Source of the DNA: Paenibacillus bovis | Lineage (GTDB): Bacteria > Bacillota > Bacilli > Paenibacillales > Paenibacillaceae | Reading direction: 5' to 3' | DNA length: 64,000 nucleotides | Assembly: GCF_001421015.2 (NCBI RefSeq) | Contig: NZ_CP013023.1 | Coordinates: forward strand, 5,121,001 to 5,185,000 | Part shown: piece after piece, positions 32,996 through 34,761 of the stretch | Position numbering within the stretch: position 1 is the first letter of the stretch | How the letters are laid out: each line of letters opens with the position of its first letter | The notes under the pieces: generated by a model | The model's input: only the letters and a program-made list of their open reading frames with translations | The model's database searches: none | What the model was told of the DNA's origin: nothing | Position numbers and translations under genes: made by a program

Positions 32996-33529
32996 CTATA
33001 TCTTTTCCACTTGAGTATAATCCAGCTCAAGCGGGGTTTCCCGTCCGAACATGTTAACATGCACTCTGAGCTTGCTCTTGTCTACCAAGATTTCTTCCAC
33101 GGAGCCCACAAAATTCGCAAACGGTCCAACTTTGATGCGTACGGATTCTTTGACCTCGAAGTCGATATGCTCCTTCGGCTCTTCCATACCCATGTGTTTG
33201 AGAATCTGTTCCACTTCTTCCGGCAGCAGCGCAGTCGGCTTGGAGCCTGAACCTGTCGAACCGACAAAGCCGGTTACACCAGGCGTGTTGCGTACTACAT
33301 ACCAGGAATCATCAGTCTGGATCATTTCAACAAGAACATATCCCGGGTAAACTTTACGCATAACGGTTTTTTTCTTGCCGTCTTTGTTTACCAGTTCTTC
33401 TTCCATAGGAACAAGAACGCGGAAAATCTTGTCTTCCATGCCCATGGACTCAACGCGTTTTTCCAAATTGGCCTTGACCTTGTTTTCATACCCTGAATAA
33501 GTATGAACTACGTACCATCTTTTTTCCAT
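32996..33529 (-). CDS. nusG: Transcription termination/antitermination factor NusG
   Basis: This 177-residue protein has the NGN domain (MEKRWYVVHTYSGYENKVKA, ending near residue 110) and a C-terminal KOW domain (VRIKVGPFANFVGSVEEI). It modulates pausing by RNA polymerase and links it to translation. It lies 22 bases after secE, the universal pair. Confidence 0.98.
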   Translation of the reverse strand: MEKRWYVVHTYSGYENKVKANLEKRVESMGMEDKIFRVLVPMEEELVNKDGKKKTVMRKVYPGYVLVEMIQTDDSWYVVRNTPGVTGFVGSTGSGSKPTALLPEEVEQILKHMGMEEPKEHIDFEVKESVRIKVGPFANFVGSVEEILVDKSKLRVHVNMFGRETPLELDYTQVEKI

Positions 33530-33551
33530 ATCAAGCCACCTGGAACCCTTC

Positions 33552-33743
33552 TTAAATTATCGCTTCGATCACAGCGGAAATGCCGATGTCTAGAACCCAA
33601 AAATAAACGGCGACAAACAATATCGTACCGATAACGATAAGAGTATAGTTGGTCAGCTCTTTACGATTAGGCCAGCGAACCTTTTTAAGTTCAGCCCAGC
33701 TTTCGGAGAAAAAGGAAAACATAGACTTAAAGCTTCGTGCCAC
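33552..33743 (-). CDS. secE: Preprotein translocase subunit SecE
   Basis: This 63-residue protein has the conserved amphipathic segment ESWAELKKVRWPNRKEL followed by one transmembrane helix, the short Gram-positive form of SecE. The frame is open much further upstream, but a GGAGGTG five bases before GTG 33743 and the family length set the start. The upstream part of that frame holds remnants of an L33 gene. Confidence 0.95.
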   Translation of the reverse strand: MARSFKSMFSFFSESWAELKKVRWPNRKELTNYTLIVIGTILFVAVYFWVLDIGISAVIEAII

Positions 33744-33768
33744 GACTACACCTCCAAAAGACGATCTG

Positions 33769-33884
33769 GTTAAACGAAGAAAAGGGGCAGAGCAAAAGCC
33801 TGTTCCATTCTTCATCCCCATGCGGTCAGGGTGGTTACACTTGCTCATATAGCTGCCTTCGTCGCCATAAAGATTGACACACCT
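33769..33884 (-). pseudogene. rpmG: Decayed 50S ribosomal protein L33 gene (rpmG remnant)
   Basis: In Bacilli an rpmG gene normally precedes secE. Here the minus strand still encodes pieces of L33: a VN after a lost start codon, GD...SY, the near-perfect NHPDRMGMK (usual family form NHPDRMEMK) and a late FC. The ATG, the first zinc CxxC and about ten residues between VN and GD are missing, and the end is scrambled. The pieces lie in the frame that runs on into secE. I infer a broken gene replaced by another copy elsewhere. Confidence 0.65.
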
Positions 33885-33915
33885 AAGAACAGGCGATTTC
33901 AGGCCTACCTGAAAC

Positions 33916-33944
33916 ACTTTATCACAGCCCTCTGAGCGTGTCAA
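33916..33944 (-). promoter_or_regulatory. secE-nusG promoter
   Basis: A perfect TTGACA (33939-33944) and TAAAGT (33916-33921) are 17 bases apart on the minus strand. The start near 33909 lies just before the rpmG remnant, as expected if the promoter originally served rpmG-secE-nusG. Confidence 0.75.
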
Positions 33945-34067
33945 CGAATATTCGTGTTTGTTTTTCAAAAAAATAACAATTCTTTTCAGCTTCTTTTCCA
34001 GACCGGATCGAATGATTTTTTTGCTATTGGTTGTTGCCACATTACAGGGTGAACGACAGTGCCATAC

Positions 34068-34098
34068 AAAATAAAAAAGACTCTATATGCAGAGTCTT
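34068..34098 (-). terminator. Intrinsic terminator after sigH
   Basis: AAGACTCT and AGAGTCTT form an 8-bp stem with a 6-base loop, followed by TTTTATTTTG on the minus strand, 19 bases after the sigH stop codon. Confidence 0.85.
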
Positions 34099-34116
34099 CA
34101 CTTGGTTGCCAGGAGT

Positions 34117-34761
34117 CTAGTTATCACGTACTTCGAGGTATCGCTCAAGCTTGCGTTTGACACGCTGAAGCGCGTTATCAATCGATTTGACATGTCTGCA
34201 GAGATCAACAGCGATCTCCTGATAAGAACGTCCATCAAGATACAGCATCAGAACTTTACGCTCCAGATCACTCAGAATCTCGGACATTTTGTCCTCGAGA
34301 CCGGTGAATTCCTCTTTGTTGATAACCAGTTCTTCCGGATCGGATACCTGTGAGCCACAAATGACATCAAGCAGTGTACGGTCGGAATCTTCGTCATAGA
34401 TCGGTTTGTCCAGGGATACATACGAGTTCAGCGGAATATGCTTTTGCCGTGTAGCCGTCTTGATCGCAGTAATGATCTGACGGGTAATACACAGTTCGGC
34501 AAACACCTTGAACGAAGACATCTTGTCGTTTTTGAAATCACGAATCGATTTGTACAGGCCGATCATGCCTTCCTGCACGATATCTTCACGATCTGCGCCG
34601 ATAAGAAAATAAGACCGGGCTTTTGCACGTACAAAATTTTTGTACTTGGTAATCAAGTACTCCAAGGCTTCGGAATCGCCTTGCCGGACGGCTTCTACAA
34701 GATCTTCATCGCTCTGGTAATCGTATGGTGACACCATGATATCTTTGAGGTCGACACTCAC
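34117..34761 (-). CDS. sigH: RNA polymerase sigma factor SigH
   Basis: This 214-residue sigma factor of the SigH/sigma-30 family drives early stationary-phase and sporulation genes. Region 2 (DREDIVQEGMIGLYKSIRDF) and region 4.2 (SYQEIAVDLCRHVKSIDNALQRVKRKL) can be read. The start is set at GTG 34761 by GGAGGG seven bases upstream. It lies downstream of rae1 with its own promoter, as in Bacillus. Confidence 0.96.
   Translation of the reverse strand: MSVDLKDIMVSPYDYQSDEDLVEAVRQGDSEALEYLITKYKNFVRAKARSYFLIGADREDIVQEGMIGLYKSIRDFKNDKMSSFKVFAELCITRQIITAIKTATRQKHIPLNSYVSLDKPIYDEDSDRTLLDVICGSQVSDPEELVINKEEFTGLEDKMSEILSDLERKVLMLYLDGRSYQEIAVDLCRHVKSIDNALQRVKRKLERYLEVRDN

Follow-up and report, generated by a model that had tools for sequence, protein, structure and literature searches.

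A decayed rpmG gene before secE in a Paenibacillus clade, and the uneven conservation of its remnant

The locus between sigH and secE

The window analysed here is a 64,000-nucleotide stretch of Paenibacillus bovis DNA whose minus strand carries, in order, sigH (34782-34117), a terminator-like hairpin after sigH (34099-34076), a candidate promoter, a palindrome, the remnant of a gene, secE (33552..33743, with its ribosome site and GTG start at 33736..33755) and nusG (32996..33529). The Bacilli-type rpmG-secE-nusG arrangement has the same order downstream of sigH, and its rpmG, which encodes ribosomal protein L33, has been assigned to the secE operon; compared with that arrangement, rpmG is dead in the clade described here (operon description in PMC8046335).

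Minus-strand positions 33843-33769 are a decayed rpmG, which confirms the central claim of the original prediction, a broken rpmG just before secE. When 33930-33769 was aligned to intact rpmG DNA of relatives, the score against L023 was 31.5, compared with a mean of 10.1 and a maximum of 19.5 for 1000 dinucleotide shuffles. Scores against the rpmG of L103, L069 and L068 were 30.0, 28.5 and 24.5 (shuffle maxima 18.0, 20.0 and 21.0). Against the L33 gene that remains elsewhere in the same genome the score was only 13.5, a figure without a shuffle reference, and this far lower value indicates that the remnant derives from the secE-linked gene.

The firm coding match comprises codons 23-34 (33808..33843), the 3' portion downstream of it (33769..33807) is scrambled, and roughly the first 20 codons are missing. 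On the 5' side lies a leader remnant (33838..33895), the site of a candidate hairpin A, within which 33884-33844 mostly looks like the old rpmG 5' leader when compared by eye (TTAGG..TCAATCTTT). A first alignment took the relic TTAGGTGTGTCAATC for the rpmG ribosome site; this was dropped, as comparison of the whole leader suggests that it belongs to TTTTAGGATCAAT, and the deletion limits of the relic rpmG therefore shifted. None of the three frames read through the remnant contains a start with two CxxC pairs, and a search of the P. bovis genome for L33 gave no match at the remnant site.

Three L33 pieces had been recognised in the sequence beforehand. NHPDRMGMK is firm, but GD..SY and FC were over-read and are probably chance, since GD..SY is lost in three related genomes with the relic (G006, G008 and G009) and FC is already absent in a fourth (G003). 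The loss itself, put at the start codon, the zinc cysteines and about ten residues, was real but underestimated, and the uneven conservation of the remnant went unremarked. Chance likeness of two pieces might suggest that the site never had a gene and that all resemblance to L33 is accidental. However, the alignment lies above all 1000 shuffles and, one clade apart, all relatives sampled have an intact gene here, so that this reading is refuted and its probability negligible.

Loss of the secE-linked gene and the remaining L33

A search across the genus covered 16 genomes, ten with two L33 genes and six with one. In each of the ten, one copy is a four-cysteine L33 immediately upstream of secE, and in each of the six the remnant occupies that site. 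The site before secE was also scanned at the loci of 120 relatives, where 111 had an intact four-cysteine rpmG and the other nine the relic. These nine records amount to six species, as those of P. wulumuqiensis, P. dauci and P. nuruki are identical to G015, G003 and G009, respectively, over the compared stretch. Further genomes of the family, from 16 other genera, had an intact rpmG at the site in 40 of 40 cases (38 by pattern, two read by eye; L198 and G024, the same as L050, were borne out separately). The expectation that rpmG normally precedes secE thus held for every sampled relative outside one clade. In 26 of these 40 genomes there is a single L33, and that copy is the secE-linked one; among the genomes examined, the relic clade alone has, as its single L33, the copy that is not linked to secE.

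In a tree of nusG and rplK with 27 rows, rooted at the midpoint, the six relics fall on one side of a single branch with support of 100/100. With all six relic species in a single clade, one loss of rpmG suffices as the simplest account. They represent three lineages, namely P. bovis itself (G000) with G003 and G015, then G006, and lastly G008 with G009. Changes common to the relics and absent from live genes, compared by eye, suggest that rpmG was already dead in their ancestor. That the site holds a remnant of rpmG, lost once in this clade, is almost certain. A live rpmG misread through sequencing or assembly error, in comparison, is a refuted explanation of vanishingly small probability, as a similar remnant recurs across six species, three of them also present as named records, and nothing was found in its favour. 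Further NusG-like proteins, with 22-25% identity to NusG and perhaps specialised paralogues, were observed in G008 and G009 (L043, L044, L045).

In the P. bovis genome, which comprises two contigs and is 99.99% complete, PF00471 has a single match, located elsewhere than the secE site. It is a 49-residue protein (Ribosomal_L33, 87.1 bits) encoded between an lpdA-like gene and thyA, and it bears out the proposal that the strain has another L33. In this protein CTET and YCPR replace the CxxC pairs, the second cysteine of each pair being gone, which identifies it by its residues as the Cys-poor (C-) form with broken zinc pairs. The gene is directly followed by thyA in all six relic genomes and preceded by the lpdA-like gene in four (G000, G003, G006 and G015); in G008 a CobW-family gene lies upstream, and G009 looks alike. 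Similar neighbour ends, judged by eye from C-terminal sequence likeness, occur upstream of the Cys-poor L33 in two-L33 genomes. The CobW-family neighbour in G008, together with this likeness, suggests that the sole L33 descends from the Cys-poor paralogue locus.

Zinc control of the paralogues was assessed from sequence with an assumed Zur box motif. A Zur-like box with 0-2 mismatches was found upstream of the Cys-poor paralogue in eight of the ten two-L33 genomes; in the other two there is none within 300 nt, and the paralogue closely follows an rpsN gene. Before the sole L33 of the relic genomes, the best match within 300 nt had 5-6 mismatches in all six. Every one of the 16 genus genomes has two S14 genes and one L31 gene. 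The Cys-poor S14 gene has a Zur box with one mismatch in G000 and G006, and none was found at up to three mismatches in the G008 stretch. L31 lacks CxxC pairs in the four genus genomes examined (L209, L210, L214 and L215; three relic, one intact). By sequence, L31 and L33 alike seem unable to bind zinc in the relic genomes that were examined.

It is very likely that the clade relies on the Cys-poor protein for all of its L33, so that the original prediction was right about what the remnant means as well as about its presence. With no recognisable Zur box, the thyA-adjacent gene would be made regardless of zinc and would supply all L33; we infer this production and use from sequence. In Bacillus subtilis, a ribosomal zinc reserve resides in L31 and L33 (as described in PMC5007448), and this reserve may be missing in the clade because L31, in the four genus genomes above, is also cysteine-poor.

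Promoter, palindrome and the conserved core

The old rpmG promoter, which the original prediction had described as still present, would be TTGACA-17-TAAAGT with an extended TG (33916..33944, minus strand), now standing before secE. The match by itself is weak, with one found where shuffles average 1.0. The element is, however, retained with the adjoining palindrome in all six relic species and present before intact rpmG in relatives, and this conservation is better evidence for a promoter than the match itself.

The palindrome, or 5' hairpin, TTTCAGGTAGGCCTGAAA lies at the expected transcript start (33897..33914, minus strand), and each of the six relic species likewise keeps it before secE. 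The pattern TTTAGGTAGSCCTAAA occurs exactly once per genome in 24 of 299 Bacilli, comprising 24 of 27 family members and 0 of 272 others, and all 24 places lie about 1 kb or less from the nusG coordinates. P. bovis itself has the variant TTCAGGTAGGCCTGAA once, as well as two places at two mismatches; a control pattern gives more (19). A near-invariant palindrome, TTTTAGGTAGGCCTAAA, was seen directly after the -10 box, at the same site before rpmG in L067, L068, L128 and others. It may act as an operator in the DNA or fold as a 5' hairpin in the RNA, and Rfam gives no match for it. Its retention in the relics makes it probable that it serves secE-nusG in them. Having stayed before secE, the old rpmG promoter and palindrome would now drive secE-nusG, and use of the inherited promoter by these genes is likely.

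Some further features were observed in intact rpmG leaders. By eye, leaders such as those of L068 and L128 can form a stem between the palindrome and the ribosome site (for example, GCGTCTTCTAATT..TTAGAAGGACGTC) whose letters change, and a repeated TTTAGG could offer an alternative pairing partner for the CCTAAA in the palindrome. In L095, L104, L107-L111 and L114, the rpmG leader holds about 100 extra bases between the palindrome and the TAGGATCAAT part.

The decay of rpmG is uneven, with a core held and its surroundings scrambled. This 26-nt core (33813..33838, minus strand) corresponds to codons 25-33, and the six relic genomes agree in 24 of its 26 columns; G006 has a single substitution and G008 and G009 lack one base, while both flanks vary strongly. 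A coding role for the remnant, giving rise to a short new peptide or lengthening SecE at its N-terminus, can be considered, as a 162-codon reading frame (34040-33552) is open through into secE in G000 and G003. However, a stop interrupts this frame in G006, and in G015, G008 and G009 it is out of register; the deletion in G008 and G009 also falls inside the core itself, which makes a coding role very improbable.

A far more serious contender is plain, functionless pseudogene decay that has not yet reached the core, with secE just using the old promoter. Scrambling of the other parts of the remnant and of the spacer between sigH and the promoter in the same genomes speaks against it, as does the divergence of sigH, where fourfold sites are identical in G000, G006 and G008 at just 20 of 83. 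The corresponding counts are 43 of 76 for nusG and 57 of 72 for rplK. At a rate of 0.4, the binomial chance of at least 24 identical columns in 26, multiplied by 150 windows, comes to 5e-6; rates of 0.6 and 0.65 raise it to 0.04 and 0.22, respectively. By these rates and chances, the core is exceptional when set beside sigH and marginally so beside nusG, but not beside rplK, and the figure is weakened further because the window was picked by eye. The core evidence comes from only three independent relic lineages. This small number of lineages and the equal conservation of rplK, for which there is no known reason, favour simple persistence, to which we assign nearly even odds.

Live rpmG genes show a partly matching pattern. 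Among 98 unique intact C+ genes, histidine codons are fixed oppositely by position, H26 as CAC (0.96) and H45 as CAT (0.93). The codons of R29, E31, K33, C36 and K37 are fixed at 0.96-0.99, and those of R24, K34 and T18-T20 vary. This secE-linked fixation is mostly absent from the L33 paralogue, where 30 unique genes use four codons for R29 and split 16:14 at E31 and 14:9 at K33; H26 is also fixed there, but to the other codon (CAT, 26 of 27). Synonymous entropy in rpmG is low at codons 26-37, and its lowest eight-codon windows, which begin at codons 28-30, reach 0.06 of the expected entropy in 71 named genomes, compared with 0.17 in nusG, 0.10 in secE and 0.03 in rplK. Overall synonymous entropy is 0.30 for rpmG versus 0.53, 0.54 and 0.41 for nusG, secE and rplK, respectively. 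Strong synonymous conservation is therefore not peculiar to rpmG, given the lower window of rplK and its 57 of 72 fourfold sites. It is plausible, though not proved, that these rpmG codons were constrained at the nucleotide level while the gene was alive. The entropy minimum of rplK lies at its codons 28-39 (L092-L168), perhaps another element within a coding gene.

Possible action of the core and its relation to known systems

The alternative to simple persistence is that codons 25-33 already controlled secE-nusG at the nucleotide level while rpmG was live, and would have been kept for that purpose. We hold such a retained cis-element to be a possibility of close to even weight. More tentative is the wider proposal, in which rpmG of Paenibacillaceae has a second role within its coding sequence, as a cis-acting element at the RNA or DNA level that outlived the reading frame as a purely regulatory leader. 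Such an element could act through RNA structure, through binding of a protein or through processing. As a guess, the secE leader RNA could form two hairpins, with the core as the conserved linker that joins them and sets secE-nusG output.

The two flanking hairpins are suggestive only. In G006 and G008, none of 1000 shuffles is as stable as hairpin A, which also beats 97.7% of them in G009 and is not above shuffles in the lineage of P. bovis (p 0.36 in G000, 0.38 in G003 and 0.125 in G015). Its true register pairs in 87% of cells, compared with at most 68% for slid registers. In five distinct rows, three pairs changed on both sides, a covariation that 141 of 500 shuffles equalled or exceeded. 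Candidate hairpin B, between the core and secE (33771..33818, minus strand), is more stable than shuffles at p 0.001-0.08 in the six genomes (0.007 in G000, 0.001 in G003, 0.015 in G015, 0.04 in G006 and 0.08 in both G008 and G009), and the matching stretch of intact genes has an average z of -1.4 (55 unique segments). A consensus fold of 72 intact leaders shows little besides the 5' hairpin.

Pairing of the core with the secE ribosome site was tried and rejected: it looks good by eye and is no better than with shuffled sites (mean z 0.08, 56 unique combinations), with z of +0.5 to +0.7 in the relics and -1.8 in the best subgroup. That neither pairing nor covariation exceeds shuffles, leaving no mechanism found for the core, is a further point for the undecayed, functionless remnant. 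In Rfam, the best match for 33500-34150 was asX2 (19.8 bits against a cut-off of 70). The conserved 5' region recalls ribosomal-protein leader RNAs, such as the L10_leader family found in L067, L068 and L092, which likewise precede a ribosomal-protein unit; unlike these, the rpmG/secE leaders searched reach the threshold of no Rfam family. Taken as a whole, the explanation by a relic gene, reliance on Cys-poor L33, an inherited promoter and a retained element is one in which we have considerable confidence.

Loss of a single L33 form has precedents. The original work on C+/C- paralogues is reportedly that of Makarova and of Panina. In such replacements of ribosomal-protein paralogues, the zinc form is lost and the cysteine-poor form kept, as here; a difference is that in this clade the C+ remnant can still be read at its old site, and the retained copy lacks the usual Zur box (replacement as outlined in PMC3087516). 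Another example is the rpmGC pseudogene of B. subtilis 168, a Zur-regulated zinc-free L33 copy dead by frameshift, whose promoter region still works and whose cell lives on another L33. Both cases thus involve a dead L33 gene; however, in the Paenibacillus clade it is the zinc-binding copy before secE that died, and the Cys-poor copy survives without a Zur box (rpmGC as treated in PMC5007448). In PMC7247131, a term search found rpmG in the reference list only and L33 absent. Among open-licence papers, none on rpmG loss in Paenibacillus or on an rpmG/secE leader was recognised by its title or the start of its abstract.

The clade thus presents a swap of zinc ribosomal proteins in which the loser can still be read: the zinc L33 is dead, and the Cys-poor L33 that was kept has no Zur box. 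The part that merits a bench test is the uneven survival of the dead rpmG, partly matched by synonymous fixation in the live gene. Should the core prove to be a real element, control of secE and nusG would come from a sequence hidden in a neighbouring coding gene, and the relic clade would be a natural knock-out of the protein with the element left in place.
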